A stretch of 64,000 nucleotides of DNA, from assembly GCA_961205875.1 (NCBI GenBank), contig OY540822.1:560501-624500 (forward strand), read 5' to 3'. The DNA comes from Sialis fuliginosa (taxonomy: Eukaryota; Arthropoda; Insecta; Megaloptera; Sialidae). The notes below the pieces were generated by a model. It was not told where the DNA came from. It was given only the letters and a program-made list of their open reading frames with translations, and did not search any database. The translations under genes and the position numbers were made by a program. Position 1 is the stretch's first letter, and every line of letters starts with the position of its first letter. Of this stretch, positions 5,296 to 54,794 are shown piece by piece.

Positions 5296-5722
5296 TTTTC
5301 CTCTTTCTCACTTTTCACTGCTTTCTTTAATAATATTATCGTATATAATATGTAGAACATATATATTTTATATGAATAATTTATATATTTTCTATAATTA
5401 TTTTATAAATTACATATAATTTTCAAAACTTATGTTTTTATATAAGTTAAACTTATATATATTTCCATGTGGGCGTCTACTGTGTCATCACAGAACTCTT
5501 CAAACTTTTTTTCCTCTTTCTCACTTTTCACTGCTTTCTTTAATAATATTATCGTATATAATATGTAGAACATATATATTTTATATGAATAATTTATATA
5601 TTTTCTATAATTATTTTATAAATTACATATAATTTTCAAAACTTATGTTTTTATATAAGTTAAACTTATATATATTTCCATGTGGGCGTCTACTGTGTCA
5701 TCACAGAACTCTTCAAACTTTT
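5296..5722. repeat. Perfect-looking tandem duplication, 213-bp unit
   Basis: TTTTCCTCTTTCTCACTTTT starts at 5296 and again at 5509, and the whole unit through CAGAACTCTTCAAACTTTTT is repeated. It appears recent. The two overlapping ORFs it carries share their C-terminal half only because of the duplication. Confidence 0.85.
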
Positions 5723-6095
5723 TAATCCCCAAAAACCACTGGTTGAATGGCAATTTTTTTTTTCCTCTTTGCGCCCCCGAAAACAGCTTGGTAGTGAGGA
5801 TTAATAGTTTTAAAAATTTAAAAAAACGTTATACTACCCAGCGTTATGAATTTATGAATTATTCAACCTCCTGAAGGGGATAGTTTTTAGGATTGAAAAA
5901 GTGAGGAATATTCCCAGGTACACTCGGAGTAAAAGGCTTTTTTTGGAATTTAAGGAATTTTTGTACCCTTTTTCAAGGGTAAAAAAAACCTGAGACCTGA
6001 TGGAGCAATTGTGAGGTCAGATTCGGTTTCAGCAACCCCGAAAAATATAAAAATGAGTTGGTCTAGTTTCTGGCACATGATTTTTTTTTGGCTGT
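5723..6095. other. Unassigned stretch upstream of the exon array
   Basis: AT-rich, with no recognisable first exon, TATA element or repeat structure. If the gene's 5' exon lies close by it is not evident here. Confidence 0.4.
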
Positions 6096-6158
6096 GTAAT
6101 AATTAAATCTTACATATTTTCAACACATTTAATTAAATACAAACAATTTTATTTGTAG

Positions 6159-6233
6159 CCAGACTCTAACTGGATACTAGAATTTATTTATAGAAAACCC
6201 TAATTTGTTTCTTGAAAATATTAAAAATACAAA
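6159..6233 (+). pseudogene. Decayed first repeat exon
   Basis: Homologous to the 99-bp exons but shortened by internal deletions to about 75 bp. It runs into an in-frame TAA, and the donor position reads AGATAATA rather than AGGTAACA. It still has an ATTTGTAG acceptor. It marks the left edge of the array and is probably not spliced as a functional exon. Confidence 0.65.
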
Positions 6234-6419
6234 GATAATACATATTCAGATTTTCTAGTTAATTGTAATTGAAAATTATTGATAAATTTAAACAGTCAAA
6301 TATCTCTACTTTATTTAACCCATATCTATTAAAAAACAAATTTAATAATTGACATTGATAATAATTAAATTTTATACATTTTCAAAACATTTGATTAAAT
6401 ATAAACATTTTTTTTGTAG

Positions 6420-9400
6420 ACGGACTACTTTACTGGATATTACAATCCTAATTTATTTATAGAAGACCAAAACCTCCCTAATTTATTTCTGGAAGACCAA
6501 AATATTGAAAATACAAAGGTAACACATATAAAGATTTTCTAGTTAATTGTAATAGCAAATTATTGATAAATTTAAACAGTCAAATGTCTCTACTGTATTC
6601 AACCTCTATCTATTAAAAAACAAATTTAATAATTGGCATTGATAATAATTAAATTTTATACATTTTCAATACATTTGATTAAATATAAACAATTTTTTTG
6701 TAGACGGACTACTTTACTGGATATTACAATCCTAATTTATTTATAGAAGACCAAAACGTCCCTAATTTATTTCTGGAAGACCAAAATATTGAAAATACAA
6801 AGGTAACACATATAAAGATTTTCTAGTTAATTGTAATTGCAAATTATTGATAAAAAACAGTAAAACATCTCTACTTTATTTAACCCCTATCTATTAAAAA
6901 ACAAATTTAATAATTGGCATTGATAATAATTAAATTTTATACATTTTCAATACATTTGATTAAATATAAACAATATTTTTTAGCCGGATTCTTCTACTGG
7001 ATATTACAATCCTAATTTATTTATAGAAGACCAAAACCTCCCTAATTTATTTCTGGAAGACCAAAATGTTGAAAATACAAAGGTAACACATATTAAGATT
7101 TTCTAGTTAATTGTAATTGCACATTATTGATAAATTTAAACGGTAAAACATCGCTACTTTATTTAATCCCTAATATAATTATTAAGAAACAAATTTAATA
7201 ATTGGCATTGATACTAATTAAATTTTATTCATTTTCAATACATTTGATTAAATATAAACAATTTTTTTGTAGACGGACTACTTTACTGGATATTACAATC
7301 CTAATTTATTTATAGAAGACCAAAACCTCCCTAATTTGCTTCTGGAAGACCAAAATATTGAAAATACAAAGGTAACACATATAAAGATTTTCTAGTTAAT
7401 TGTAATTGCAAATTATTGATAAAAAACAGTAAAACATCTCTACTTTATTTAACCCCTATCTATTAAAAAACAAATTTAATAATTGGCATTGATAATAATT
7501 AAATTTTAGACATTTTTAATACATTTGATTAAATATAAACAATTTTTTTGTAGACGGACTACTTTACTGGATATTACAATCCTAATTTATTTATGAAAGA
7601 CCAAAACCTCCCTAATTTATTTCTGGAAAACCAAAATATTGAAAATACAAAGGTAACACATATAAAGATTTTCTAGTTAATTGTAATTGCAAATTATTGA
7701 TAAATTTAAACGGTAAAACATCTCTACTTTATTTAATCCATATCTATTAAAAAACAAATTTAATAATTGGCATTGATAATAATTAAATTTTATACATTTT
7801 CAATACATTTGATTAAATATAAACAATATTTTTTAGCCGGATTCTTCTACTGGATATTACAATCCTAATTTATTTATAGAAGACCAAAACCTCCCTAATT
7901 TATTTCTGGAAGACCAAAATGTTGAAAATACAATGGTAACACATATAAAGATTTTCTAGTTAATTGTAATTGCAAATTATTGATAAATTTAAACAGTCAA
8001 ATGTCTCTACTGTATTCAACCCCTATCTATTAAGGGCGGGGTAAGGTTAATTCGTACAAAAAAAGGCATGTTTTTTTGAATTTTTTGTGACGACACAGTT
8101 AAAATCTCTTTATTAAAACCAATGGTATATTAAAGAATGACATTCGAAGAATGTTGTATAAAATTTTCACGAAGAAATATTAAAAAATACGGCAATGGCA
8201 GCAATTATTCGAACGTCTCTCGGAAAAAAGTAGAATTACGGTGCCCCTCATAACTTTGTGCTGGATCATCCGAAATCAAAAAATCAAAGTTCATTCGTTA
8301 GATAATAGTTTTCCCCAGGTAACGCTGGGAGGGTTTTTCGAAATTTAATTTTTTCACTTTTTTGGAACACTTTGAAGCGAAAAACGCGAAAAAATCGGCT
8401 AATTTGTTATTGTAAAATAAAAATTATTAACAATTTTGAAAAAAACTCTCCAGCGTTACCTCGTAAATTATGTACAGAAATAGTGTTCAAAATTTCAAAA
8501 GGATCGGTGCAGTAGTTTTGACGTTATGAGGGGCACCGACTTTGAAAAAGTGAGTTGTGGGGAAAACGCTTTAAAGTTTTGAACACTAAAAAAAACAATA
8601 GCGCGCTCGGGTAGGTATAAAAATCCGCCAGATATAAAAATACTCATAACATCGTCAATTTTGCTCCAATCGACTTGAAATTTAGACACAATATTCTTGA
8701 AATATTATGCATTCAGTTTAAAAAATAAAAAAAAATTCAAAATAAAAATTTTTTAAAACCTTACCCCGCCCTTAAAAAACAAATTTACTAATTGGCATTG
8801 ATAATAATTAAATTTTATACATTTTCAATACATTTGATTAAATATAAACAATTTTTTTGTAGACGGACTACTTTACTGGATATTACAATCCTAATTTATT
8901 TATAGAAGACCAAAACGTCCCTAATTTATTTCTGGAAGACCAAAATATTGAAAATACAAAGGTAACACATATAAAGATTTTCTAGTTAATTGTAATTGCA
9001 AATTATTGATAAATTTAAACAGTTAAATGTCTCTACTGTATTCAACCCCTATCTATTAAAAAACAAATTTAATAATTGGCATTGATAATAATTAAATTTT
9101 ATACATTTTCAATACATTTGATTAAATATAAACAATTTTTTTGTAGACGGACTACTTTACTGGATATTACAATCCTAATTTATTTATAGAAGACCAAAAC
9201 CTCCCTAATTTATTTCTGGAAGACCAAAATATTGAAAATACAAAGGTAACACATATAAAGATTTTCTAGTTAATTGTAATTGCAAATTATTGATAAAAAA
9301 CAGTAAAACATCTCTACTTTATTTAACCCCTCTCTATTAAAAAACAAATTTAATAATTGGCATTGATAATAATTAAATTTTATACATTTTCAATACATTT

Positions 9401-11790
9401 GATTAAATATAAACAATTTTTTGTAGCCGGACTCTTCTACTGGATATTACAATCCTAATTTATTTATAGAAGACCAAAACCTCCCTAATTTATTTCTGGA
9501 AGACCAAAATATTGAAAATACAAAGATAACACATATAAAGATTTTCTAGTTAATTGTAATTGCAAATTATTGATAAAAAACAGTAAAACATCTCTACTTT
9601 ATTCAACCTCTATCTATTAAAAAACAAATTTATTAATTGGCATTGATAATAATTAAATTTTATACATTTTCAATACATTTGATTAAATATAAACAATATT
9701 TTTTAGCCGGATTCTTCTACTGGATATTACAATCCTAATTTATTTATAGAAGACCAAAACCTCCCTAATTTATTTCTGGAAGACCAAAATGTTGAAAATA
9801 CAAAGGTAACACATATTAAGATTTTCTAGTTAATTGTAATTGCAAATTATTGATAAATTTAAACAGTCAAATGTCTCTACTGTATTCAACCTCTATCTAT
9901 TAAAAAACAAATTTAATAATTGGCATTGATAATAATTAAATTTTATTCATTTTCAATACATTTGATTAAATATAAACAATTTTTTTGTAGACGGACTACT
10001 TTACTGGATATTACAATCCTAATTTATTTATAGAAGACCAAAACGTCCCTAATTTATTTCTGGAAGACCAAAATATTGAAAATACAAAGGTAACACATAT
10101 AAAGATTTTCTAGTTAATTGTAATTGCAAATTATTGATAAAAAACAGTAAAACATCTCTACTTTATTTAACCCCTATCTATTAAAAAACAAATTTAATAA
10201 TTGGCATTGATAATAATTAAATTTTATACATTTTCAATACATTTGATTAAATATAAACAATATTTTTTAGCCTGATTCTTCTACTGGATATTACAATCCT
10301 AATTTATTTATAGAAGACCAAAACCTCCCTAATTTATTTCTGGAAGACCAAAATATTGAAAATACAAAGATAACACATATAAAGATTTTCTAGTTAATTG
10401 TAATTGCAAATTATTGATAAAAAACAGTAAAACATCTCTACTTTATTCAACCTCTATCTATTAAAAAACAAATTTATTAATTGGCATTGATAATAATTAA
10501 ATTTTATACATTTTCAATACATTTGATTAAATATAAACAATATTTTTTAGCCTGATTCTTCTACTGGATATTACAATCCTAATTTATTTATAGAAGACCA
10601 AAACCTCCCTAATTTATTTCTGGAAGACCAAAATGTTGAAAATACAAAGGTAACACATATTAAGATTTTCTAGTTAATTGTAATTGCAAATTATTGATAA
10701 ATTTAAACAGTAAAACATCGCTACTTTATTTAATCCCTAATATAATTATTAAGAAACAAATTTAATAATTGGCATTGATAATAATTAAATTTTATTCATT
10801 TTCAATACATTTGATTAAATATAAACAATTTTTTTGTAGACGGACTACTTTACTGGATATTACAATCCTAATTTATTTATAGAAGACCAAAACGTCCCTA
10901 ATTTATTTCTGGAAGACCAAAATATTGAAAATACAAAGGTAACACATATAAAGATTTTCTAGTTAATTGTAATTGCAAATTATTGATAAAAAACAGTAAA
11001 ACATCTCTACTTTATTTAACCCCTATCTATTAAAAAACAAATTTAATAATTGGCATTGATAATAATTAAATTTTATACATTTTCAATACATTTGATTAAA
11101 TATAAACAATATTTTTTAGCCTGATTCTTCTACTGGATATTACAATCCTAATTTATTTATAGAAGACCAAAACCTCCCTAATTTATTTCTGGAAGACCAA
11201 AATGTTGAAAATACAAAGGTAACACATATTAAGATTTTCTAGTTAATTGTAATTGCAAATTATTGATAAATTTAAACAGTAAAACATCGCTACTTTATTT
11301 AATCCCTAATATAATTATTAAGAAACAAATTTAATAATTGGCATTGATAATAATTAAATTTTATTCATTTTCAATACATTTGATTAAATATAAACAATTT
11401 TTTGTAGCCGGACTCTTCTACTGGATATTACAATCCTAATTTATTTATAGAAGACCAAAACCCCCCTAATTTATTTCTGGAAGACCAAAATATTGAAAAT
11501 ACAAAGGTAACACATATAAAGATTTTCTAGTTAATTGTAATTGCAAATTATTGATAAATTTAAACAGTTAAATGTCTCTACTGTATTCAACGCCTATCTA
11601 TTAAAAAACAAATTTAATAATTGGCATTGATAATAATTAAATTTTATATATTTTCAATACATTTGATTAAATATAAACAATTTTTTTGTAGACGGACTAC
11701 TTTACTGGATATTACAATCCTAATTTATTTATAGAAGACCAAAACCTCCCTAATTTATTTCTGGAAGACCAAAATATTGAAAATACAAAG
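6420..11790 (+). CDS. Tandem array of 17 symmetric 99-bp exons
   Basis: Exons: 6420-6518, 6704-6802, 6984-7082, 7273-7371, 7554-7652, 7837-7935, 8863-8961, 9147-9245, 9427-9525, 9707-9805, 9991-10089, 10271-10369, 10551-10649, 10840-10938, 11120-11218, 11408-11506, 11692-11790. Each is exactly 33 codons, has a T-rich tract plus TAG before it, and lacks stops in the one open frame. Two classes occur: nine copies begin TDYFTGYYN after TTTTTGTAG, eight begin PDSSTGYYN (acceptor TTTTTTAG or TTTTGTAG). All continue with near-identical PNLFIEDQNL and PNLFLEDQNI repeats and end ENTK (ENTM in the 7837 copy). Fifteen copies are followed by GTAACAC; copies 9427 and 10271 have AT instead of GT. The 7554 copy changes FIEDQ to FMKDQ. 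The product segment would be an Asn/Asp/Glu-rich, Leu/Phe-punctuated repeat of unknown function. No known domain recognised. Confidence 0.72.
8034..8771. mobile_element. TTAA MITE inserted in an array intron (piggyBac-like)
   Basis: 738 bp with perfect 15-bp terminal inverted repeats (GGGCGGGGTAAGGTT) flanked by TTAA at 8030-8033 and 8772-8775. Sister introns show the empty site as TATTAAAAAAC, so the insertion and TTAA duplication can be read directly. Subterminal inverted blocks occur (GGTGCCCCTCATAAC at about 8240 and its complement at about 8522). No transposase. TTAA specificity fits piggyBac-type mobilisation. Confidence 0.88.
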
Positions 11791-11882
11791 GTAACACATA
11801 TAAAGATTTTCTAGTTAATTGTAATTGCAAATTATTGATAATTTTAAACGGTAAAACATCGCTACTTTATTTAATCCCTAAT

Positions 11883-13990
11883 ATACACTCACGGAAAAAA
11901 TTAAAGGACCACTTTTATTTTTCGAAAAAATTGCTCATTTTCAAAGTAATGCCGATAGGTCAAATATGATCAGTTTTTTACTTATAGGATATGAAAATTG
12001 AAGGAAATTTTATCATCTTTTCGAATTTAGGAGTATTTTTGTGTTATTAAACTTATTTTTGTGACCAAATTGCGGTTTAATAAAAAATAAAATAATTGAT
12101 TTTTTTTGCAATTTTGAAAGATGCCCACGGGGATGTTAAATTTTTTTTCTAAAATTTCAAAATAACACTTTTGTAGGAAATTTTTTCAGCTTTAAAACGC
12201 TGTTTCAAATTTGTTTTATAATTTTTTGGTGTTGGGATATTCGAGTTTGAATGAAAAAAGTACCAAAAAGTTTTAAACGACCATAAAGGGTCTAATGTTG
12301 GTCGCACAGAAAATAAAAAAAAAAGAATATTAAACCTTAAATAATCACCTATTGCCTAGTCGCATTTAAAAAAAAATAATTTTAACTTAACCCTTCAAAT
12401 ACGAAAAACAAAACAATGTTCGACTTTAAATAATCCTGTAAAAATAACCTTTTTTAATCATAGATCTAATTTTTAAAATGTATCCAGAAATTAAGTTCTA
12501 TCAAAGAATATGAAAATTAGACTTATTACCTTCTATGTGAACAAAGATTCCAGTAAAAAAATTTTAATTTGTCTGAGAAATTGTATTTTGAATTTTTTGT
12601 ATACGTTTAGGTCTTGACCGTTCTTTTTATAACAAGTTTTTCTTTGGGATTTTTTTTCGAAAAACAATCAATTTTTGAGATAAATTGTAAGAGGGAAAAA
12701 GTTTTTCTTTCTTGTTATAGAATATTCATAATTTTTTTCAGTTGTTTTGTATCAATATTGAGGGATCAAGTTAATTTTTAATAGGGTACTTTTTCATTCA
12801 AACTTGAATATCTCGGCATCAAATAATGTGACAATCATTTTTTAAAAAGCATTTTTAAGCTGAGAAAATTTACTAAATGATGAATATCATGGAATTTAAA
12901 TAAAAACCATACATCCCCGTGTGAAATTTCTATAACTGCAAATAAATAATTCATTTTTTTTAATCAACTACGTGTAGACAAAAAAAAATTCAGTTACTTT
13001 GAACGAATAAGCGGTGAAAGTTCAATGAAAATTAATTTAACTGTCGAAATCAAGAGTCTTTCATATGTTGAACGTTTTTTCATGACCACACGCAGTTGAC
13101 TAAAAATTGAAAAATTGAAATTTTTTGCAATTATGGAAGTTTCACACGGGGATGTATGATTTTTTTCAAAATTCCATGATATTCATCATTTAGTAAATTT
13201 TCTCAGCTTAAAAATGCTTTTTAAAAAATGATTGTCACATTTTTTGATGCCGAGATATTCAAGTTTGAATGAAAAAGTACCCTATTAAAAATTAACTTGA
13301 TCACTCAATATTGATATAAAACATCTGAAAAAAATTATGAATATTCTATAACAAGAAAGAAAAACTTTTTCCCTCTTACAATTTATCTCAAAAATTGATT
13401 GTTTTTCGAAAAAAAATCCCAAAGAAAAACTTGTTATAAAAAGTACGGTCAAGACCTAAACGTACATATACAAAAATTTCAAAATGCAATTTCTCAGCCA
13501 AATTAAAATTTTTTTACTGGAATCTTTGTTCACATAAAAGGTAATAAGTCTAATTTTCATATTCTTTGATAGAACTTAATTTCTGGATACATTTTAAAAA
13601 TTAGATCTATGATTAAAAAAAGGTTATTTTTACAGGATTATTTAAATTCGAACATTGTTTTGTTTTTCGTATTTGTAGGGTTAAGTTAAAATTATTTTTT
13701 TTTAAACGCTACTATACAATAGGTGATTATTTAAGCTTTAATATTCTTTTTTTTTATTTTCTGTGCGACCAACATTAGACCCTTTATGGTCGTTTAAAAC
13801 TTTTTGGTACTTTTTTCATTCAAACTCGAATATCCCAACACCAAAAAATTATAAAACAAATTTGAAATAGCGTTTTAAAGCTGAAAAAATTTCCTACAAA
13901 AGTGTTATCTTGAAATTTTAGAAAAAAAATTTAACATCCCCGTGGGCATCTTTCAAAATTGCAAAAAAAAATCAATTAACTTTTTAAATG
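11883..13990. mobile_element. Foldback element, about 2.1 kb, right tip missing
   Basis: Inserted into an array intron after CTAATATA. Arms at about 12095-12960 and 13080-13985 are near-exact complements (for example GATGCCCACGGGGATGTTAA at 12120 and its complement at about 13930). The left tip, CACTCACGGAAAAAATTAAA, resembles the TA-flanked element at 40740, but no matching right tip is seen; a separate hairpin follows instead. Confidence 0.7.
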
Positions 13991-14205
13991 GAATTATATA
14001 TCAATTAGTACTTTATCTTAAAAAATATATTTAAATTAACAACTTTTGTTAAGAAAATTTATAATTTTATTAAAAAATTTTTAAATAATTTTTTTTTTAA
14101 TAAAATTTAAAATTTTCTTAACAAAAGTTGTTAATTTTAATATATTTTTTAAGATAAAGTACTAATTGATATATCATTCCATTAAAAAAATTTGAATTAT
14201 CCCCA
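13985..14205. repeat. Near-perfect AT hairpin, about 220 bp
   Basis: ATATATCAATTAGTACTTTA near 13994 pairs with TAAAGTACTAATTGATATAT near 14155; the loop is a T-rich stretch around 14080-14098. Abuts the element to its left and may have replaced that element's lost end. Confidence 0.75.
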
Positions 14206-17200
14206 ATTGAACTTTTGCATTTTTGATATGTCGCGTATAAAACATTAAACTAGCCAAATCTAAAATAATCAGACATCATTAGAAGGTTCATTATTTCTTT
14301 TTTTTAAAGAAATATTAAAAATAAAATTTCATTAATATTTAACGAAACTAGAGCACTTTTAATAAAACCCTAAAATTTGGGAACAAGTCGCTATATTTTC
14401 GAAACAATTGAATGTATGAAAAAACTTTTTTTACAAAAGATTCTTACTTTTTTATGATCTTTAAAATTATGTACTTTTGGATATACCGTTCCATTTGATT
14501 TTGCTAAGAAACGGGCATGTACCCCTCAAACTACCCCCCAAAGAGGGGTTTTAGGGGGTTGAAAATATTTTCCTGAAATTCTTTAGGGTCGATATATATC
14601 ATACATTTTTTATCATAAAACTCTATCTTCAATAGTTTGGGCGTAAAACATACCTGGAACACCCGGTATGTTCAAAGATTAGTTGAAAATCAAAAACTTG
14701 GAAAAATCGTCCATGTGCGTCCCGATAAAATTGCATAATTGTGCATTTTTGATACATTTCGATTGTATCGCTACTGTTTTTGAAATATCTCCGGTTCTAT
14801 AGGTTGTAGGAAAATAAAAAAAATAATAAAAAACTTATAAGTTCATAAACTATAGAACTGTATACAGGGTTACTGGTAATTCGATACATTTCTTGTAAGG
14901 CGTAATAGTAGAGATAACAAGTAACCATTTGAACCCAATATTGCCTTATACAAATGTTAACCGTTACTGAGATATTTAGAATTTTTGAATTTTTCAAAAA
15001 TATCTCAAATTTCAACTTTAAACTATTTTTTTTTTAATACACAGTATATTTTTATTTTGCTTCTGATACTCAGACAATATGCCGGTTCTTTGTTAGAAAC
15101 AACAAAATTAGTACCATTTACTTAATCTTCGACACAGTGCCTCGAAACTCTAACACTTCGATATTTGTTATATGTTTTTTTTTGTTTAAAATGCAAATTC
15201 TCCAAAAAAACCACTAACTAATTTAATGTACAGTCTTTTAAAAACTGCCTTATCTTTCTAGCTATCCAATGAGATATAAATGTTATTAAAAAAAACTCTC
15301 TACTTAGGAGGAATGAGTCTCAGAAACGAAACAGATCGCAAATTGTTAAAATAGCACGCGGGGGTTATTTACACAAACTGATTTTAACAAAATAAAACAA
15401 ACATCTGATTTAAAAAAATAACTTTGATTATTTTTACAAATCCTGCTCAATTTGAGAACCTCTATTTCTAATGCAGGCTCTACATCTACACCGTACTTCA
15501 GTCCTGGTGACTCTTGATATCAGATTATTTCTAGCTATCCAACGAAATAAAATTGTTTTAAATTTTTACGCATACAACAATAAAAACTACTATGACAAAA
15601 CTGATACTATCATAGATAAGTATACAAACAAACAAAAACACATTGTTGCACAAAATCACAACAATTAAAAATTTCACATGCATACAGACAGCTACATCAG
15701 CGCTATGGTGAGCGTAGTGAAAATTTTCATCCTTTTCACATAAAGTAACCATATCCTAATGCTCTAACTGTGATAGTAGTTTTTATTATTGTATGCGCGA
15801 CTGTGTCGGAGCGTTTAACATTTACTGCAGTGCTACGTCTAAGCAAGCGCGCTAAGACTCACGCGTCGTTACCTAAAAAACATCTGCCAAGTAAATTTAC
15901 AGTGCTTCCTCGTGCTAAATTCACTAAAACCGATAGTTCAGATAAATTGCCTGGCATTGGTTAACCATTTAATTTTTATACAAATTTTACTAAAAAATCT
16001 TAGTTCGAAATTTTTCTTAAAACGCACCTGAATATTTTTTCATATATTTTTAATTTTTTGACAACATCAATCTAAATCTAAATTTATGCTTATGTTAAAA
16101 TGACATTTAAAACGTCAAAGTGACATTTAAAACGCTAAAATGACATTTAAAACGTCAAAATGACATTTAATATACCTATCCAATCAAATATCAATTTAGA
16201 AAAACAAAACACGAATTTTTAAAATAAATTGAGATAAATCTTTGTAAGGGAATATTTTACAACAAACGTAGTAGACCCATATTATAGGAAATTTAATGCT
16301 CTAAAAAAATATTCTATAAAATTATCTCGTAACATGTGTCGTTCTTGAGATATCTTGAAAAAATAAATATTTTGGGGTGTCACCCCTCCCCCTTACACAC
16401 GATTTTGATGATTTTGAAATGGGACCGTCCTCAAACCAAACCCAACTATCCGACCAAGTTTCAATAATATCGGTTCAGTGGTTCATGAGTTATGCGTGTG
16501 ACAAGGATTCAAGGGACAGACGGACGGACGGACGGACAGACGGACAGACAGACAAACACGGAACGAAAGGTGTTTGTCTTGACGTGAAACGGATAAATCA
16601 ATTTAAAATTTTGAAATTGGAGAACTTTTTTTTTGTCTCAAAAGCAAAATTAATATTTCATAAAGTTTTCATATATTCATAAATTTTCAAAGTGCTACAT
16701 ACTCAGGATTGATTAAGCTACAACATATTTTTTTATTTTTAAAATTCAGAGTTGACATGTGCCCCAAATTATCAGTTAAATTTTATAATTTGTGCAGCAA
16801 AATATTTTTTTAAATAAATTATATACATTTTCCTACAAAATTGATCCCTTGTATTTTTACGCTATCTTTGATAGTTTTTGAGATATTTCGTTTTTTTTTT
16901 TTAAAGTCAAATTTTCAAATGTCGATATTTTTGGGGGGAATTTTTATTTTTCGATTTTTAAGTACCGTTAAAAATCTTCTTTTAGCTAGTACTAAAACAT
17001 GTAAAAATTAAAAAAATCGGTAACAATAACAATAAAAAAGTGTGCAGTTATTTATGGAATGACCGATAATATATATTTCTTGCGATTTCCTAATAATTAT
17101 TTTTATTCCTACAATTCTTTGTAGATTTTTTTAGTTTAAATATTTTTATAAATACATTTTGTCTATATTATACAGATATTTTTTAATAGATATTTATGTT

Positions 17201-17253
17201 GTGTTTTTACATATTTATTTGTTTAATTTTTTTTTAGCTTCTAAAATCTATTA
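14206..17253. other. Intronic repeat-derived DNA, no gene seen
   Basis: Contains a block at 14671-14850 that reappears as its complement at 19427-19606, making a 4.9-kb inverted pair around the elements between them. The stretch 15010-15870 is unassigned and has no credible coding capacity. Confidence 0.5.
15874..16650 (+). mobile_element. SSR-bearing repeat element (GACG/GACA family), copy A
   Basis: Matches 59618-60466 closely along its length: a CATCTGCCAAGTAAAT start, four copies of an 18-19-bp TGACATTTAAAACGTCAAA repeat at about 16100-16170, CACGATTTTGATGATTTTGA, then a GACGGACAGACA microsatellite at about 16511-16552. A third copy lies inverted at the window's right end. Non-coding; the reading frame through the microsatellite gives an RRTDGRTDG-type peptide. 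Confidence 0.7.
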
Positions 17254-19101
17254 GTACGTCTGGTTCGTGGCAAATAAAGCCAAAACGCTGCACTTTTTGA
17301 TTGGGGTATGCCACTTTCGGTGGTCATATATAAGGTCAAAAGATGCATTTTCAGATAGAGAGCCACTTTAAAATCCGTGTAGAACACCATTATATCGGCT
17401 ATTAAAGATGGCCCTCACGGTTTTTATTAAATTGGCTGTATCTCAGCTCCTAATCATCTGATTTCAATTTTCTTTTGTTTATTTTAAAGTTCTTATTAAA
17501 AAAAATAGTTTTTATCATTATTCATTTTTCTCTAAATCTTAAGGGTTCCCCACAATTTTCCGAAATCTGAAGATTTCACTTTTCTTACAAACTTAATTGT
17601 TATATAACTTTTTTATTGTGCCCAATATCATTTTTTTACCTCATATAAAAAAGAAAGACATTTTTGTCTGCGTTCCATTGATAACAAGATAATACTGTTT
17701 TAATTAACAGCTTCTTTGGAAATAGCGTGTTAAACTAAGAAAAATAGATTATTTTTGGATCATTCCATGTCAAGTTTACCTGTATTGGTTTCTCGGATTC
17801 GAGATTTTGATGGAAATGTCCATTTATACCTTCCCTGAATCGATTCTGACTATTTTTATCACCATGTCTGTCTGTCTGTCTGTCTGTGTGTGTATCTGTT
17901 TGTCTGTAAACGTTGTAACTCAAAAATGACAGTACATAGAGGGGTAAAATTTTATATTTAGGATTAAATTGTTTTAAGCAAGAAACCCTGATTTTTTTAA
18001 AACCGGAAACGGATGTTTACTGTAATTTTTATAATTATTCGAATTATTTCTGAAACGGTACGTGTTGGAAGAAAATGTTTAAAGAAAAATTTGTTTAGAA
18101 TATTATTATTTATAATTTATGTTATGTTCAATTTCTCCCAAAAAAGTTTTTGAGGTTATAATCGTTTTTTTCAATTATATTTGAAATGGTTTAAAGCAGA
18201 AATAAATCATTGAAATAAAAGTTGTAGAGTATGTTATTTTCTATAGTTTATGTTCCATTAATTTTTTTGTATCTCTTACCAATTAAAAAAAAAATCTTTT
18301 TAATTATATTTTTAATTTTTTTCCATTTTATTTGAACAAGTTCATGACAGAATGAAATGTTCATAACAAAAAATGTAGAGAACGTTATTATCTATAGTTT
18401 ATGTTCTATTAATTTTTTTATATCTGTCTTCAGTAAGCCAAAATTATTTGTTTTATATTAGTAGATACACGTACATTTTTTTATTGTATAAGAAAGTTCA
18501 GTGATATCCATGACAGATTTTTCAATTTTTTAACTATGCCATATGAGAAAATTGATCCCAACATAAAATTTCATATGATAAAAGGTAAATTTGACATGGA
18601 ATAATCCAAAAATAGTCTATTTTTCTTAGTTTAACACGCTTTTTCCAAAGAAGTTGCTAATTAAAACAGTATTATCTTGTTATCAATGGAAAGCAGAATA
18701 AAATGTCTTTCTTTTTTATATGAAGTAAAAAAATGATATTGGGCACAATAAAAAAGTTATATATAAATTAAGTTCGTAAGAAAAGTAAAATTTTCAGATT
18801 TTCAAAAATTGTGGGGAACCCTTAAGATTTAGAGAAAAATGTATAATGATAAAAAATAATCTTCTCAAAAAGAACTTTAAAACAAATAAAAGAAAATTGA
18901 AATCAAATGACTAGGAGTTGAGATACAGCCAATTTAATAAAAACGGTGGGGGCCATCTTTAATAACCGATATAATGGTGTTCTACACGGATTTTAAAGTG
19001 GCTCCCTATCTGAAAATTATTCTTTTAACCTTATCTATGGGCACAGAAAGTGTCATACCCCAATCAAAAAGTGCAGGGTTTTTTTTACGTACCAGACGTA
19101 C
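17254..19101. mobile_element. TA-flanked foldback MITE, GTACGTCTGGT family, copy 1
   Basis: Termini GTACGTCTGGT and its complement are flanked by TA on both sides, fitting Tc1/mariner-type insertion. Long arms pair (TTTTTGATTGGGGTATG near the left end, CATACCCCAATCAAAAA near the right). A GTCT microsatellite sits in the left half at about 17866-17886. Copies at 29228 (truncated) and 56068 (complete), with diverged relatives at about 51090-51595 and 58890-59600. No transposase. Confidence 0.8.
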
Positions 19102-19972
19102 TATATCTAGAATCGACCATAACATGTTTTCCTCGAAAATTTCGGATTTGACATTTTTTACTAATACGTTGATTTCACTAATTTATTGATTAAGTCAAAA
19201 AAAAATTTATTATTGTAAAAAAAATTGTAACTATATATTTTGATTAAAAAAAACTATTTGCCAACTATTTTACAGAAAAAAAATCAACTATATAGTAACT
19301 ATTTCATTTAAAATAACAACTATTTTTCCAATCTCTAATTATTAGTGATAAAAAAAATTATTCGACATTTTTTTTATTTTCGATGTTATGATGCGTTTGA
19401 AAAGTTACGCTACATATGCAGTTCTTATTAACTTATAAGTATTTTATTATTTTTTTTATTTTCCTACGATCTATAGAACCGGAGCTATTTCAAAAACAAT
19501 GTAGCGATACACTCGAAATGTATCAAAAATGCACAATTATGCAATTTTATCGGGACGCACATGGCCGATTTTTCGAAATTTTTGATTTTCAACTAATCTT
19601 CGAACATATAAAGAGAAAATCCAAAAAAAACTAACTTCCCAAATGTATCACTTCAAAATGCTAATTTCCCTCTTCTACATATTTATAAGTGCAATACAAA
19701 CCGAGATATGACTCATTTACGTTGAGTATGAATTCGCAAACTACTGAAATTTAAATGTTAAACATCAAATAGCGGGAAAACAAAGAAAAATTTGGGGAAA
19801 ACTCATAAAACCTTAAGTACTTGAAAAGAGCTTCAAAATGAGTGCTGCTAAAAGTTGATTGTATAAAAATTGACTGAGATATGGTACAAATAAAATTAGT
19901 TTCAATATTTTTCAGCGTAACAATTATCAATAATACCCCCACCATTACCACCAAAATCAAAATTGGACGTAA
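19102..19972. other. Intronic DNA, no gene seen
   Basis: Includes the right member (19427-19606) of the inverted pair with 14671-14850. Otherwise AT-rich and unassigned. Confidence 0.45.
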
Positions 19973-22900
19973 GAGTCATTCCATTTATAATCATCAAATT
20001 TATTAAAATATAGAAGTTGCACCATTTTTAATTTTGATGAAAGTTTAATCAGTTGTTATTATACTTATTAGATAGCAGAAACTGTACTTAGAAAAATTTT
20101 AATGGCCATAGTTCGGGGGTGGTGACCGTTTTACCCTCTTAAGATATGAAGATTTCGTCGATTTTCAACGTTTTTTCAACTCGCTATAGCACGCGTTCTA
20201 ATAAAGCAATTACAACGAGCTTAATATCATTTGAAAGACTAAAGAATCTAGTTTTAATTGATCTAGCACAATTTAAAGTTTAAATAATTTTTTTTGTAGA
20301 TAGAGGCTTTTCAAATTTATTAATAAAATTGTCATTTTTTTTATTTTTCGAAATTTATTGTGGCTCTAAGGTTAAACTGAGAAAGCTATAATTATGTGTA
20401 AGTTATGTTCATTTATAGTACTCAGTACCCACAAAAAATCAGCTTGATTGATGCACATCTTTTATTAAAAAAATTTAGTTAAATATCGCAAAAATCACGA
20501 AAACACCAAAATCAGCTGTTTTCGAAGCAAAAAAAAGTTATGTGGGGGACGAGATAAAATTCTGATTTTTTTTTTACAAATGCTCTAAATAGTTATCTTT
20601 GAAGGCCTTATAGATTCGTTTTGTTATTTTCATTTTTATAGCAACCAGAATTTTTTATTTAAATTTTAAAAAATACGAAAACTTCAAAAACGGTTATTTT
20701 TAAACATAATACAAAAATATGTTGGGCACGAACTAGAATTCTGAATTTTTTTTTACAAATGCTCTAAATAGTTATCTTTGAAGGCCTTATAGATTCGTTT
20801 TGTTATTTTCATTTTTATAGCAACCAGAATTTTTTATTTAAATTTTAAAAAATACGAAAACTTCAAAAACGGTTATTTTTAAACATAATACAAAAATATG
20901 TTGGGCACGAACTAGAATTCTGAATTTTTTTTTACAAATGCTCTAAATAGTTATCTTTGAAGGCCTTATAGATTCGTTTTGTTATTTTCATTTTTATAGC
21001 AACCAGAATTTTTTTTTTTAATTTAAAAAAATACGAAAACTTCAAAAACGGTTATTTTTTAAACAATACAAAAATATGTTGGGCACGAGATAGAATTCTG
21101 AATTTTTTTTTACAAATGCTCTAAATAGTTATCTTTGATGGCCTTATAGATTCGTTTTGTTATTTTCATTTTTATAGCAACCAGAATTTTTTTTTAAATT
21201 TAAAAAAATACGAAAACTTCAAAAACGGTTATTTTTAAACATAATACAAAAATATGTTGGGCCGACATAGAATTCTGATTTTTTTTTACAAATGCTCTAA
21301 ATAGTTATCTTTGAAGGCCTTAATGATTCGTTTTGTTATTTTCATTTTTATAGCAACCAGAATTTTTTTTTTAATTTAAAAAAATACGAAAACTTCAAAA
21401 ACGGTTATTTTTTAAACAATACAAAAACATGTTGGGCACGAGATAGAATTTTGATTTTTTTTTTACAAATGCTCTAAATAGTTATCTTTGATGGCCTTAT
21501 AGATTCGTTTTGTTATTTTCATTTTTATAGCAACCAGAATTTTTTATTTAAATTTTAAAAAATACGAAAACTTCAAAAACAGCTATTTTTTAAACAATAC
21601 AAAATATATGTTGGGCACGAGATAGAATTCTGAATTTTTTTTTATAATTGCTTTAAGTAATTAACTTTAAAGGCCAATTGGCTTTTTCTTGTTATTTTCA
21701 TTTTTCTAGTCACCAGACTTTTTTTAAATCCTTAAAAGTGTAAAAACTCAGATATTGTACTAATCAATACTAAAGAGAATCTAAATTAACAAATCTTACA
21801 CTTAATAATAGTATTTACTACTTCGGATTGAGTTTGATATTTTTTCAACTTTTTGATCAATTTCATTTTTTCTCTTTGATAGGTAAAGGTAGTTTTTTAA
21901 TTACAACAGGAGATTCATTCAAAACAGCACAAACTTGGTTGATTTTTCAAATACAGGGTTCAAATATTTCATCCCTGACAATATTCACAATATTCATAAT
22001 GAAAAGAAATATTTATAAAAAACATATAATATTAAACCTTTCACAGAAGAATAATAAGTATTCTTCAAAATCAATTTAACAATTAATTTATTTGTATGCT
22101 TTAACATCATAAATATAATAATAATAATAATATAACACATAATTTTTTTTGTTTATTTTCGAAAATACATGATTTTGGAGATTTTACACTTTTAAGGATT
22201 TAAAAAAAATCTGGTGACTAGAAAAATGAAAATAACAAGAAAAAGCCAATTGGCCTTTAAAGTTAATTACTTAAAGCAATTATAAAAAAATTTTCAAAAT
22301 TCTATCTCGTGCCCAACATATTTTTGTATTGTTTAAAAAATAGCCGTTTTTGAAGTTTTCGTATTTTTTTAAATTTAAAAAAAAAATCTGGTTGCTATAA
22401 AAATGAAAATAACAAAACGAATCATTAAGGCCTTCAAAGATAACTATTTAGAGCATTTGTAAAAAAAAATTCAGAATTCTATCTCGTGCTTAACATATTT
22501 TTGTATTATGTTTAAAAATAACCGTTTTTGAAGTTTTCGTATTTTTTTAAATTTAAAAAAAAATTCTGGTTGCTATAAAAATGAAAATAACAAAACGAAT
22601 CTATAAGGCCTTCAAAGATAACTATTTAGAGCATTTGTAAAAAAAAAATCAGAATTTTATCTCGTCCCCCACATAACTTTTTTTTGCATCGAAAACAGCT
22701 GATTTTGGTGTTTTCGTGATTTTTGCGATATTTAACTAAATTTTTTTAATAAAAGATGTGCATCAATCAAGCTGATTTTTTGTGGGTACTGAGTACTATA
22801 AATGAACATAACTTACACATAATTATAGCTTTCTCAGTTTAACCTTAGAGCCACAATAAATTTCGAAAAATAGAAAAAATGACAATTTTATTAATAAATT

Positions 22901-23241
22901 TGAAAAGCCTCTATCTACAAAAAAAATTATTTAAACTTTAAATTGTGCTAGATCAATTGAAACTAGATTCTTTAGTCTTTCAAATGACATTAAGCTCGTT
23001 GTAATTGCTTTATTAGAACGCGTGCTATAGCGAGTTGAAAAAACGTTGAAAATCGACAAAATCTTCATACCTTAAGAGGGTAAAACGGTCACCACCCCCG
23101 AACTATGGCCATTAAAATTTTTCTAAGTACAGTTTCTGCTATCGAATAGGTATAATAACAACTGATTAAACTTTCATCAAAATTAAAAATGGTGCAACTT
23201 CAGCACCTTGATGATTTTATTTGGAATGACCCGTAATCCTT
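19973..23241. mobile_element. Foldback element, 3.3 kb, with internal tandem repeats
   Basis: The outer ends pair (TCATTCCA at about 19974; TGGAATGA at about 23232), and long arms match, for example GGCCATAGTTCGGGGGTGGT at about 20103 with its complement near 23090. The arms are unequal because a tandem unit of about 179 bp expanded in the left one. The central loop (about 21720-22180) carries an 83-codon ORF with no recognisable product. Confidence 0.8.
20530..21660. repeat. 179-bp tandem repeat in the left arm of the foldback
   Basis: AAATGCTCTAAATAGTTATC recurs at about 20577, 20755, 20935, 21114, 21288 and 21466, with a diverged unit near 21645. The inverted arm (about 22290-22660) holds only two or three copies. 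Each unit has GTTGGGCACGA and CAACCAGAATTTTT motifs. Adjacent copies are almost identical. Confidence 0.85.
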
Positions 23242-23639
23242 CTACAATTCCTTTCACTTGAGTACTATCAATGTGATCAAGGATTTTTGACCGTTTTAAA
23301 TGCCTGGTTTTAAAAAAACGTTTGAATGAATTGAGGAGAGATTTTTAATAAATTAAAAAAAATTGCCTTTTTTAAAGTACTTAAAAACTAATGCAGATAC
23401 GAAAAAATAGCAAGAATAGAAAAAGTTGGGATATTAAATTTACTATAAGTTATTTTTTGTTTCCTGTAGCATTACAAATAACTGAGTTATGAACGTTTGA
23501 AGTTTGCATGTTACAGTGAAAGTCTCCTTTCCCTATGCCTTTAAACGGAATAATTTTAAAAATGTTTTAATTCATAAGAGCTTATAGCTACGAAAATTTC
23601 TTACAAAATGGTTTTTCGATGGACTGTATAATCCTTAAT
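23242..23639. other. Unassigned intronic DNA
   Basis: AT-rich, no repeats or coding signal recognised. Confidence 0.4.
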
Positions 23640-24496
23640 ATATATAAAGCTCAACGTCTCTCTGTCTGTCTGTCTGTCCGTTCATGCGCTTATCACTCGA
23701 GAATCACTTATCCGATTTACGTGTTTTTTTTTAATTCATAGGTACATTCTCTGGCCAGGTTATAGACTATATTTTGATACGTTAGGTAACATAACGACTA
23801 AGCAGTGACGATAATAGTAAATCAAGTCGGAAAAAATTTTGCCGTCGGCGCGCTGTTTTGTAATACGCTGCCTAAACCGTTCAATATAGAACAAAATAAT
23901 GTATTAATGAACTGTGTAGAATCAAAAGTTCTACAATAAAGTCCGCGACACCATATGTCTAACTTTTATATTTAAGCCACAATGACTGCTTTTATGTTAC
24001 AAAGAAAACATAAAATATTTGGGTTCTGTTTACATGGACTTATGACCTGCAAAACATTAATCCTTATCGAAATAAATGATTTAATCGTCATAAGCACTTA
24101 ATGTAGATATATTTTGCCCTTTACAGCATCCAATTTGGTTGTATAGTTTAGAAAATATCTTAAAATAAATTTATAAATGTAACATTTTAAATGTATGGTG
24201 TCGTGCCGCATCGAAGCGATGTACAACAGACTGGATTCGTTTACGCTCGGTAGATATTAGGATTCCCTCGGCTGATCGTTTGATTTTATTTTGTTCTCAA
24301 TAATTAACATTTAAATTTAAACAGAACACAAATTATTTGTACTTTTTTCTTTTTGTTAGGTAATTTAGGTATTGATAAATTATTATTACAATAATAACTA
24401 ATCGTGTTTGTACTTAATTAATTAAACTATATTTTTTTTAAATCCTAAACAATAATTCCGTAGTCTACGCGAGCGAAGCCGCGTGGGCACTGCTAG
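23640..24496 (+). mobile_element. Possible Helitron-like element
   Basis: The 3' end reads as a GC-rich hairpin (ACGCG stem at 24467-24471 with CGCGT at 24480-24484), then 8 bases, then CTAG followed by T, matching the CTRR-T rule of Helitrons. The left side begins near AAGCTCAACGTC followed by a TCTGTC microsatellite. The 5' end is not a clear TC, and no Rep/helicase is present. It could be another kind of non-autonomous element. Confidence 0.35.
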
Positions 24497-24638
24497 TATA
24501 ATATATAATTGACCGAGTTATCGTCAGAAAAAAAAAATTCAGAGTTACTTTCGGAGCATGTTTTAATAAATAATAATATAAAATTAAATTTTATACATTT
24601 TAAATACAATTGATTAAATACAAACAATTTTTTTGTAG

Positions 24639-24737
24639 CCGGACTCTTTAACTGGATATTGCAATCCCAATTTATTTATAGAAAACCAAATCCTCCCTAA
24701 TTTGTTTCTGGAAGACCAAAATATTGAAAATACAAAG
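24639..24737 (+). CDS. Repeat exon isolated from the main array
   Basis: 99 bp between a TTTTTTTGTAG acceptor and a GTAATT donor. Starts PDSLTGYCN and contains PNLFIENQIL and PNLFLEDQNI before ENTK. Flanking intron sequence matches the array introns, so this is a unit of the same repeat, cut off from the array by about 12.8 kb of inserted elements. Open only in the frame that joins the next exon. Confidence 0.78.
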
Positions 24738-24922
24738 GTAATTAGGATTTTCTAGTTAATTGTAATTGCAAATTATTGATAAATTTAAACAGTCAAATAT
24801 CTCTACTTTATTTAATTCCTAATATAATTATTAAGAAACAAATTTACTACTTGATATTGATAATAATTAAATTTTATACATTTTCAATACATTTGTTTAA
24901 ATACAAATAATTTTATTTGTAG

Positions 24923-25021
24923 CCGGACTCTTTTACTGGATATCAGAATCCCAATTTGTTTAAAGAAGATCAAAACGACCCTTATTTGGTTATTCAAAAC
25001 AAAAACAATGAAAATACAAAG
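24923..25021 (+). CDS. Repeat exon, most diverged copy nearest the recombinase
   Basis: 99 bp, preceded by TTTTATTTGTAG and followed by GTAATA. It starts PDSFTGYQN and ends ENTK like the array exons, but its second 10-residue repeat has drifted (DPYLVIQNKN against the usual LPNLFLEDQN). Its divergence and position suggest an old, non-homogenised copy, possibly close to the founder of the array. In phase 0 with the 51-bp exon. Confidence 0.75.
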
Positions 25022-25101
25022 GTAATAGATATTAAGATTTTCTAGTTAAATGTAATTGTAAATTATTGATAAATTTACATTAATTATAATTTTATTTGTA
25101 G

Positions 25102-25152
25102 TACTTTCCTGAATTTGCTGCATGTCATTTAGACGAAGTTCCAGAAATTCGG
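25102..25152 (+). CDS. 51-bp penultimate exon
   Basis: A run of T ending in ATTTGTAG precedes it and GTAATA follows. It is 17 codons, open in one frame only (YFPEFAACHLDEVPEIR); the other two frames contain stops. It is phase 0 with both neighbours, separated by an 80-bp upstream and a 75-bp downstream intron. It does not resemble the 33-codon repeat exons and its role is unknown. Confidence 0.75.
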
Positions 25153-25227
25153 GTAATACATATTTTTCAAGCTATAATTTAAAAATTCAATATAAAAAAT
25201 AATAATTTTGATTTACTCATTTCTTAG

Positions 25228-27273
25228 GATACTGATTCAAATACGTCAGTGCTACTTCAATCATCTCCATCCTGCAGTGTTAACAATACAAATCAAAATA
25301 AACAAATTCGTCAAAAAGACTTCTGTTTTCATTGCGAAACATTGGTTCTAAATTTTGCAAGACATTTAAGAAGAAAACATTCGTGTGAACCTGATGTTCA
25401 GAAAATATTTTCTTTGCCCGTAAATTCTAAATCAAGAAAACATTTAATTACTTCACTTCGAAAAAAAGGTAATTATTTAATAAATTCTGCAAAGTGCATG
25501 AAGCCAGTAAAACAATCAAATGCAGTGAATTTGTTACCTTGTGTACATTGCTTAGGGTACTATTCAGAGAAGTTTTTATGGAAACATAATAAAATATGCG
25601 TAGAAAATCCTGCAAAACTAAAAGCACAAAACACATTAGTAAGTTTAAAAACAGATCAGCAATTGCATGAACAAGTATTTCCTCGGATGCGGGATGATGT
25701 AATATCTCTCGTAGCTAAGAAAGACTCGCTCATTTGCGCTTTTGGTGCACGTTGTATGAAAACTCATCGAAAAAAACATTTTATAAATTTAACGTCACAA
25801 AAAATGCGTGAATTAGCTAAAATATTAATTGAAATAAAGATATTAAACCCTAATATTATAAACTTATTTGATGCGCTACAGCCAAAATATTACGATTTAT
25901 TTGTGACTGCAACAAAAATTATTGCAAGATATGACAGCACAAAAGATTACTATGAATCTCCAACATTCGCAATAAACATTGGAACTACTCTTAAACAATG
26001 TTGTGGCATTGCAATAATATATGCGTTGAAGAAAAAAGACATTTATGGTTATGTCCAATCCGCAGAAGCAGAGAGCAATATAAAGACTTTTATTCTATTG
26101 CTACAATCGAATTGGAAATATGATATATCAAGTAAGGCGGCGGATGATTTAAATGTTAACAAATGGAAAAAGATAACTATTGTTCCACTTGCCAGCGATT
26201 TAAAATTATTGAATGAATATTTAATGAGAAAAGTAACTGAAGCTGTCAAAAAGTTAGAAGAAAATAATTATGATCAAGAAGCATATATAGATCTTACTGA
26301 CATAATTTACTGCAGAGTAATTTTACTCAACATAAAGAGGCCAGGAGAATTGCAACGTATGCTATTAACATTTTACAAGGAATCTGACAGTAAGCAAAAC
26401 TATCAAGAATTTAGCGATGCAATATCAGAAACAGAAAAAATTTTAATGAAAAAGTTCAAGATAATTGTTATTAGAGGGAAACGGGGGAGAGGAGTTCCTG
26501 TCCTATTTACCACACAACTTCAAGAAAATATTGAAGTATTGTTAAAATACAGAAAATTTCATATTGATTGTATGAATCCTTATTTATTTGCAAAACCAAA
26601 CACAAATACATTATGTGACTACAAAATATTAAAAAAATATGCATCTGCATGTGGTGCAAACAATCCCGATGCAATAACTTCAACAAGACTACGAAAGCAT
26701 TTGGCTACCATAACACAGATTTTTAATATGAATGAAAATGACATTGAGCAGTTAACCACCTTCATGGGGCATACTTCTGGTGTACATAAAAATTCATACC
26801 GGTTACCAAACGATGTATATCAAACTGCCAAGATTTCCAAACTGTTAATGCTAATGGAAAAAGGTGCTGCGGGAAAATTTAAAGGGATGTCACTAGATGA
26901 TATTGAATTAGATTTAAATGAAGAGTTATCTGAAACTGAAGACGATATTGATGACATAATACCTGTCGAAGAAGATACGTGTATATTATCAGCAACAGAT
27001 ACAAAAGAGACAATAAATGAAATACAAATTAATAATGAAACTAAAAACATAAGAAAAGAACCAAAACGAATACTAGTTCCGTGGACCAATGAACAAAAAC
27101 GAATTATAAATGAGTATTTTAAAGAAAATATTAATCAAAAGAAAGCCCCTAAGAAACATGAGTGTGAAAAATTGTTAGAAAAATACCCTGTTATTTTAAA
27201 TAATAAAACGTGGTTAAAAATAAAAGTATATATACAAAACATATACACATGTAAAATAAAAAAAATAAACTAA
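25228..27273 (+). CDS. Terminal exon: tyrosine recombinase with zinc-finger-like N-terminus and Myb/SANT-like C-terminus
   Basis: The exon begins after the acceptor at 25226-25227 and runs 681 codons to a TAA. No ATG lies at its head; a GTG at 25249 is internal, so translation should start in an upstream exon. Residues counted from 25228: C33-C36-H46-H51 and C105-C108-H120-C124 are zinc-finger-like, with a third Cys/His cluster near residues 170-184. The recombinase core shows R371 (in KRPGELQRM), K418 (in RGKRGRGVPV), R489 (in TRLRKHLAT), H515 (in MGH) and Y524, with H and Y nine residues apart as in phage-integrase-family enzymes. The usual His of HxxR is Thr. An acidic stretch follows (about 555-590), then a Myb/SANT-like segment from W619 (PWTNEQKRIINEYF). 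Family knowledge: these enzymes cut and rejoin DNA through a 3'-phosphotyrosine; Crypton transposons and DIRS/Ngaro elements encode them. No reverse transcriptase is present, so Crypton-like or a host-domesticated relative is most likely. Activity and target are unknown. Confidence 0.85.
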   Translation, partial: DTDSNTSVLLQSSPSCSVNNTNQNKQIRQKDFCFHCETLVLNFARHLRRKHSCEPDVQKIFSLPVNSKSRKHLITSLRKKGNYLINSAKCMKPVKQSNAVNLLPCVHCLGYYSEKFLWKHNKICVENPAKLKAQNTLVSLKTDQQLHEQVFPRMRDDVISLVAKKDSLICAFGARCMKTHRKKHFINLTSQKMRELAKILIEIKILNPNIINLFDALQPKYYDLFVTATKIIARYDSTKDYYESPTFAINIGTTLKQCCGIAIIYALKKKDIYGYVQSAEAESNIKTFILLLQSNWKYDISSKAADDLNVNKWKKITIVPLASDLKLLNEYLMRKVTEAVKKLEENNYDQEAYIDLTDIIYCRVILLNIKRPGELQRMLLTFYKESDSKQNYQEFSDAISETEKILMKKFKIIVIRGKRGRGVPVLFTTQLQENIEVLLKYRKFHIDCMNPYLFAKPNTNTLCDYKILKKYASACGANNPDAITSTRLRKHLATITQIFNMNENDIEQLTTFMGHTSGVHKNSYRLPNDVYQTAKISKLLMLMEKGAAGKFKGMSLDDIELDLNEELSETEDDIDDIIPVEEDTCILSATDTKETINEIQINNETKNIRKEPKRILVPWTNEQKRIINEYFKENINQKKAPKKHECEKLLEKYPVILNNKTWLKIKVYIQNIYTCKIKKIN

Positions 27274-53780: not shown

Positions 53781-54009
53781 TGATATGCCCCCCCCCTCAT
53801 CGAACAATGAAATTTCGTCCGCCACGTTGTGAAGAATCTTTCCAGCTGTCGAAAGACACCTCACCGACGATTCTAGCCCAAACGGATCGCCGGCAAAACC
53901 CAAAACCAGGGTAAACCGCCATCGGAACGCCAACACGTCAGTCCATCCTTCCTTAACGAAAGGGAGAAGGGTAAGTTGCGAGTTGGCTCTCACCAACGAA
54001 GCGCATCCG

Positions 54010-54025
54010 TGGACGATATAAAGCC
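54010..54025 (+). promoter_or_regulatory. TATA-like element
   Basis: GACGATATAAAGCCTCCC lies about 235 bases into the candidate LTR, just upstream of the GC-rich repeats; plausible core promoter of the LTR. Confidence 0.35.
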
Positions 54026-54139
54026 TCCCGATTTTTTATGAAAAGTCAGTTAACTCGAAGTCAACTCCAGGGACAAGTGCCCTACCTACCACTGCCGAGT
54101 TAATACTTGGCAGCAGAGGTGCTCGAGATACCACTCCAG

Positions 54140-54450
54140 TGTCGCTGGTTGAGGACCACTGACGCCACCGCCTGAAGTTGAGGACCACTGCCGCCGCCGA
54201 AGAAGACGTCAACCACCGGACGTTTGAGGACCACTGCCGCCGCCGAAGAAGACGTCCACCACCGGACGTTTGAGGACCACTGCCGCCGCCTAAGAAGACG
54301 TCCACCACCGGACGTTTGAGGACCACTGCCGCCGCCGAAGAAGACGCCCACCACCGGACGTTTGAGGACCACTGCCGCCCGCCGAAGGAGACGCCATCGC
54401 CTCACGATGAGGACCACTGCCGCCCGCCGAAGGATGCCGCCGTCACCTCA
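54140..54450. repeat. GC-rich minisatellite, about 51-60-bp units
   Basis: Blocks of GAGGACCACTGCCGCCGCCG followed by AAGAAGACGTCCACCACCGG recur about six times with small variations (positions near 54180, 54228, 54270, 54318, 54366, 54410). Precedes the 45-bp array and may share its origin. Confidence 0.7.
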
Positions 54451-54794
54451 CGTTGAGAACCGCTGACGTTCACCAGAGATGCCCGCTGCAGCTGTGACGC
54501 CCAAATTCACAGGCACGCACCCGAAGACAAGCGCCGTTGCCGCTCAGACAAGAACTCTGACCGCTGACGCCCGAAGAAGAACGCCACCCGCTGAAGCCCG
54601 CCAAGAGACGTCCGTCGCCGCTGTGACACCCAAAATCACAGACGCGCACCGGTAGCCGAGCGCCGTCTCACGACCAGAGACCGCTGACGCTCCGAGAAGA
54701 ACGCCGACCGCCGAGAGACGTTCACCGCCACTGTGATGCCAACATTCACAGACGCGCACCGGAAGCCGAGCGCCGTCTCACGACTAGACCCAGC

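Follow-up and report, generated by a model that had tools for sequence, protein, structure and literature searches.

How does a gene come to carry a long run of almost identical exon-like units, and what might such a run contribute to its product? The question is raised by a locus of the insect Sialis fuliginosa that lies in a 64,000-nucleotide stretch of contig OY540822.1 (assembly GCA_961205875.1; here C14:560501-624500), hereafter the window. In it, 99-bp units repeat upstream of a predicted tyrosine recombinase gene, and an earlier note had proposed that they are exons of that gene. We favor, with a probability of about 0.7, a reading in which recurrent tandem duplication of symmetric exons has given this insect recombinase gene an N-terminal region of variable length. 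The case for a coding array would rest on the frame of the units, their putative splice sites, the neighboring gene, and the paralogues. Splicing among the units and onto the recombinase exon is inferred here, as is the existence of a start exon.

The array of phase-0 units

The earlier note described seventeen 99-bp phase-0 units at 6420-11790 and further copies at 24639 and 24923, each with 33 codons open in a single frame, a T-tract plus TAG in front, usually a GTAACAC donor behind, and a period of 280-289 bp. All of these units were located by script (Table 1). The T-rich tract ending in TAG precedes 19 of 19, and the expected frame is free of stops over 33 codons (99 nt) in every one. The other two frames are closed by stops in 18 of the 19 units (17/17 within the array), so that the single open frame holds for all but unit 19. 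The donor is GTAACAC in 15 of the 17 array units and ATAACAC in units 9 and 12; the donor sequences at 24639 and 24923 are GTAATTAG and GTAATAGA. As described, 280-289 bp separate one unit start from the next. The exception is the distance of 1,026 bp from unit 6 to unit 7, where the period is interrupted by a 738-bp insert that is flanked on each side by TTAA and has an exact 15-bp terminal inverted repeat. The marks of a tandem exon array are present, with AG acceptors in 19/19 units, GT donors in 17/19, and 33 codons in 19/19. Chance is excluded as the source of the repetition. The proposed maximum of 627 residues is correct as arithmetic (19 x 33).

The units appear to have been exchanged recently. 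Units 2, 11, and 14 are identical across exon and intron (280 bp), and mean identity between units peaks at a lag of three units, which together fit recent unequal exchange. Units 9 and 12 are 99.3% alike across exon and intron, so their shared AT donor is probably one mutation that was then copied. To judge by its sequence, the array is young and homogenizing; sequence alone is no proof of translation.

The two copies at 24639 and 24923 probably belonged to the same array. When a complete period is used as the query, intron homology after unit 17 stops at 11880 (intron position 90), and homology ahead of unit 18 begins at 24578 (intron position 124). With ~33 nt of intron missing between these break points, the sequence from 11881 to 24577 looks like an insertion. 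Thus, an insertion of ~12.7 kb probably split one array, and units 17 and 18 would formerly have been neighbors.

A DNA search of the genome (392 Mb, 20 contigs) with the unit gave 21 matches, all on the same contig, namely the 19 units and two partial copies. One of these, at C14:540697, lacks GT and has its frame broken by one base; in the other, at C14:2837879, homology stops ~45 nt into the exon. The search was not exhaustive: it failed to return the degenerate unit of 6159-6234 and, at C14:3487.3k, a decayed copy (see below).

Table 1. Positions of the units and associated features within the window.
Feature	Position	Strand	Remarks
Degenerate unit upstream of array	6159..6234	+	frame broken by deletions, donor ATAATA
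Unit 1	6420..6518	+	33 codons, phase 0
Unit 2	6704..6802	+	33 codons
Unit 3	6984..7082	+	33 codons
Unit 4	7273..7371	+	33 codons
Unit 5	7554..7652	+	33 codons
Unit 6	7837..7935	+	33 codons
Insert in intron between units 6 and 7	8034..8771		738 bp, resembles a miniature inverted-repeat transposable element (MITE)
Unit 7	8863..8961	+	33 codons
Unit 8	9147..9245	+	33 codons
Unit 9	9427..9525	+	AT donor, not GT
Unit 10	9707..9805	+	33 codons
Unit 11	9991..10089	+	33 codons
Unit 12	10271..10369	+	AT donor, not GT
Unit 13	10551..10649	+	33 codons
Unit 14	10840..10938	+	33 codons
Unit 15	11120..11218	+	33 codons
Unit 16	11408..11506	+	33 codons
Unit 17	11692..11790	+	33 codons; intron cut
Sequence between mid-intron break points	11881..24577		putative insertion between units 17 and 18
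Unit 18	24639..24737	+	33 codons, donor GTAATT
Unit 19	24923..25021	+	33 codons, donor GTAATAG, most diverged of the 19
Short phase-0 exon	25102..25152	+	17 codons, AG acceptor, GTAATAC donor
Last exon	25228..27273	+	681 codons + stop; zinc-type motif, tyrosine recombinase, C-terminal fold

The recombinase gene

The open phase-0 frame runs on through the 25102 exon into the 25228 exon. By its acceptor, its donor, and its YFxEF start (YFPEF...), judged by eye, the 25102 exon may be a unit that is old and has diverged. No Met precedes the zinc-type motif in the recombinase exon, so the full protein needs upstream exons. Its product has a XerD-like predicted catalytic fold, that of a tyrosine recombinase, and a weak match to a homeodomain/Myb-like fold at the C terminus. 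The recombinase is conserved relative to one paralogue, with a nonsynonymous divergence (dN) of 0.21 and a synonymous divergence (dS) of 0.82. R371, K418, R489, H515, and Y524 are invariant across 43 aligned sequences, and an invariant T486 occupies the His position of HxxR. The catalytic motif positions (R, K, HxxR, H/W, Y) were placed by reference to XerD.

The protein has no recombinase or DUF3504 family match in Pfam (E up to 1), and the 43 aligned members together gave a single match (E up to 0.01), of one member to DUF1890. A comparison with the sequences of solved structures gave no useful match. The named recombinase relatives among the matches listed are insect proteins, many of them from beetles.

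Paralogues and relatives with repeats

A genome search with the recombinase gave, among the matches listed, three close copies free of stops, two distant ones, and remnants. The paralogue on C10 has an array of its own. Six tandem phase-0 exons (five of 69 nt, one of 63 nt) lie upstream of its recombinase exon, with starts 339-375 bp apart, whole codons in 6/6, and five GT donors and one GC donor. They are preceded by a 30-nt ATG exon and a 102-nt exon with a WFCN motif that recurs in several relatives, and followed by two acidic exons (81 and 84 nt) that resemble each other by eye. Exon borders were placed by eye at AG/GT (one GC). In the resulting model, all 11 exons have lengths divisible by 3, and 943 codons run to the stop. 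The 23-residue unit of C10 does not match the 33-residue units (tblastn). The only indel among the C10 array exons is one of 6 nt. Between the introns of C10, indels of 1-5, 14, and 19 nt occur, and most of the small ones fall in T runs. In 9 of 10 pairs the exons have diverged less than the introns, a descriptive count only as the pairs are not independent; the order is reversed in the pair i2-i4 (exon 0.014, intron 0.004).

A second paralogue, on C2, has a 32-codon ATG exon directly 5' of its recombinase exon, and no exon array was found in ~30 kb upstream. At C14:3487.3k, a third paralogue has decayed. A unit exon of 21 codons with a GT donor is followed there by a second unit start that is fused to the recombinase exon, which itself carries stops and frame breaks. 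The unit type of the window thus adjoins a recombinase at two loci. The short form is probably ancestral to the 33-codon form, in which there is an internal repeat (NPNLFIEDQN, LPNLFLEDQN). A blastn comparison of the paralogue regions with the neighborhood of the window gave mostly dispersed matches upstream.

Similar repeats may be found more widely among the relatives. Our set held 163 sequences (162 database proteins and the C10 model), of which 88 were tested, 24 being left out for lack of a zinc-motif match and 51 because their N-terminal part was too short. Internal repeats with z > 6 were found in the N-terminal part of 18 of the 88 (17/87 database proteins plus C10), compared to 1/88 for an equally long catalytic stretch; these counts come from shuffles that preserve composition only and from relatives that are not independent. 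In a smaller set of 59 proteins, the counts were 11/59 and 0/59. Among the weaker positives, P0070, P0090, and P0034 are long alignments of low identity, and P0152 (Aromia moschata by source name) has four near-identical repeats of 43 residues. By their species names, the relatives with repeats presumably span several insect orders. As a separate observation, recombinase relatives P0128 and P0131 carry precomputed PF05485 (THAP-type by source name) or PF07776 annotations, which may be a sign of varied N-terminal fusions.

A proposed history of the array

The earlier note had the units attached to the recombinase. This gains support from the unit type beside a decayed second copy, from the independent array in an intact paralogue, and from the mid-intron break points. 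The gene would be a multi-exon member of a zinc-motif tyrosine recombinase family, Crypton-like in general plan, with the array as its 5' part. Its founding exon may have been small, symmetric, and in phase 0, probably with ~21 codons, and would have reached 33 codons through an internal in-frame duplication. Exon and intron would have been duplicated together in tandem, immediately 5' of the recombinase exon, until 19 or more copies stood there; later, the ~12.7-kb insertion would have parted units 1-17 from units 18 and 19. Each unit consists of complete codons and has phase-0 introns on either side, so the recombinase frame would survive whether units are gained, lost, or skipped. Copy number could be altered by unequal crossing-over, and length per transcript could be altered if splicing skips units. 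Length tuning by copy number, which had been suggested before, is plausible given phase-0 symmetric units in front of a recombinase exon. The C10 paralogue, whose exon is a different one, would have acquired its tandem N-terminal phase-0 exons separately, and other insects may have done the same.

It is tempting to go further and suppose that this insect family of recombinases, probably active, repeatedly evolves length-tunable N-terminal tails from unrelated phase-0 exons copied in tandem, that repeat number, determined by unequal crossing-over and splicing, adjusts assembly or targeting of the enzyme, and that here the tail reaches up to 627 residues built from one exon. We hold this broader idea tentatively and find it rather doubtful. 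As for what a tail would do, spacing, self-association, and partner binding are guesses.

Evidence against a coding array and alternative explanations

Several findings weigh against a spliced and translated array. Diversity, computed on 16 of the 17 array units (unit 17, with its cut intron, was left out), is 0.047 in the exon (15 of 99 columns vary), which is not below the 0.042 of the intron (27 of 190), and the codon positions of these units barely differ in variability. Over the 17 array units, 11 of 15 substitution states are nonsynonymous, near the neutral share. With the exon as variable as the intron, a selected region of 627 residues is not demonstrated. Two units have lost the GT donor, and unit 19 has a second open frame as well as an exon that differs more than its intron from all 4 array units compared and from unit 18. 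A start exon was sought by tblastn in the window and in 34.5 kb upstream, using the C2 and C10 exons and N-terminal regions of relatives as queries, and nothing convincing emerged (best E of 0.007). A protein search with units plus tail (residues 1-215 scored) gave no match at E <= 0.001, a null that says little, as the closest recombinase among the matches listed in that database is at most 59% identical. In addition, a C10 array exon plus its edges recurs at C14:6021843-6021923 as an 81-bp copy with 100% identity, with no recombinase nearby among the matches listed. Comparisons of unit 18 with 4 array units go the other way, the exon differing less than the intron in 4 of 4. The ratio dN/dS is ~0.4-1.0 in five pairs that include unit 18 or 19, from very few sites.

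Could the array have fallen out of use? Units 1 to 17 may be a relic copied from a real exon beside the recombinase and left unspliced since the 12.7-kb insertion, with only units 18 and 19 and the 25102 exon still serving as exons. The equal variability of exon and intron in the array would fit such a history, as would the lost donors of units 9 and 12, the 738-bp insert within the array, the broken units at 6159 and C14:540.7k, and the failure to find a start exon upstream. However, 17 of 17 array units are free of stops and frameshifts, while the flanking or detached copies (6159, C14:540697, and C14:2837879) are broken or cut off. The 19 units together have 34 substitution states. Of these, 24 are nonsynonymous and 9 synonymous; the remaining one would be a stop on the consensus but is found in a codon altered elsewhere too. 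The probability of no stop over all 34 is 0.17, so exon integrity alone is weak evidence. On balance, we consider it unlikely that the array is a relic.

Mutually exclusive, Dscam-type choice of one or a few units per transcript is, in the available part of PMC9013439, a common splicing mode of tandem duplicated exons. The units here are near-identical, though, so choosing among them would yield little diversity, and the RNA structure predicted for one period does not stand out (z of -0.62), in an analysis that included no search aimed at selector-type structures; we regard this mode as highly improbable. We find it scarcely credible that the array is a tandem satellite or a noncoding RNA with an accidental open frame. 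Its homogenization is satellite-like, and no amino acid constraint is visible in it. Yet the same type of unit adjoins a second copy of the recombinase, the unrelated C10 array lies within a complete open gene model, 19 of the 21 genome-search matches are located at the window gene, and there is no Rfam match in 5800-25300 at gathering thresholds. Exon duplication in front of the recombinase is the explanation that we prefer.

Other features of the window

Three further repeats were seen. A stretch of 213 bp is duplicated in tandem at 5296-5723, with 100% matches. At 20539-21725 and 22202-22675, what is apparently the same 178-179-bp repeat occurs in opposite orientation, ~480 bp apart, in a foldback-like arrangement. 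Finally, a ~2.1-kb block at 53781-55873 has 51-65% GC (200-bp steps) within surroundings of ~19-38% GC. It contains a 46-bp array and a 45-bp minisatellite of 18.6 copies in which several frames are open on both strands. The block looks like an insertion, since the sequences flanking it match stretches that adjoin each other in C14:3468-3493 kb.

Significance and comparison with known systems

If splicing does include the units, many near-identical coding exons in succession would be attached to a recombinase; if they are unspliced, the locus would be a clear case of an exon array becoming a satellite. Two paralogues with unrelated arrays, together with the repeat-bearing relatives, would offer a natural series for how exon arrays start, homogenize, and die. 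The same series could show whether repeat number matters to a DNA-acting enzyme.

Cryptons and the animal genes derived from them also have a tyrosine recombinase, with an insect group (CryptonI) and known domestication (PMC3212892, in part), and N-terminal exon arrays are not described in the available part of that source. The likeness is one of general plan, and the protein of the window gene matches no recombinase or DUF3504 family in Pfam. Dscam-type clusters have tandem exon duplication in common with the window gene, but their copies are mutually exclusive (PMC9013439, in part), whereas a choice among the near-identical units here would alter little.

Chicken BG genes and schistosome micro-exon genes were considered as relatives and retained as analogues only. 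Schistosome micro-exon genes share short symmetric exons, repeated patterns of exon length, and fast evolution, but their exons are of 6-36 bp and encode mostly secreted or membrane proteins, whereas the exons here are near-identical, of 99 and 69 bp, and belong to a DNA-acting type of protein (PMC5825161, in part). With 99-bp units and a last exon of 681 codons, the window gene falls outside the definition of a micro-exon gene, which has ~80% of the coding region in symmetric exons of 6-36 bp (PMC5825161, in part). Chicken BG genes, like the window gene, have many short repeat exons, of 21 nt in their case, that encode a repetitive region, and a title cited in the same source attributes size polymorphism of BG proteins to length variation of that region (PMC4046983, in part). 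BG proteins are immunoglobulin-like proteins of birds with heptad repeats, whereas here 33 (or 23) residues repeat before a recombinase (PMC4046983, in part). A literature search, covering few subscription journals, found no paper on a repeat-exon array joined to a recombinase. The earlier note had not recognized such arrays as described, and this needs dividing: chicken BG genes are a known case of short repeat exons in arrays that vary in length (PMC4046983, in part), while their attachment to a recombinase family, and their recurrence within it, are what would be new.

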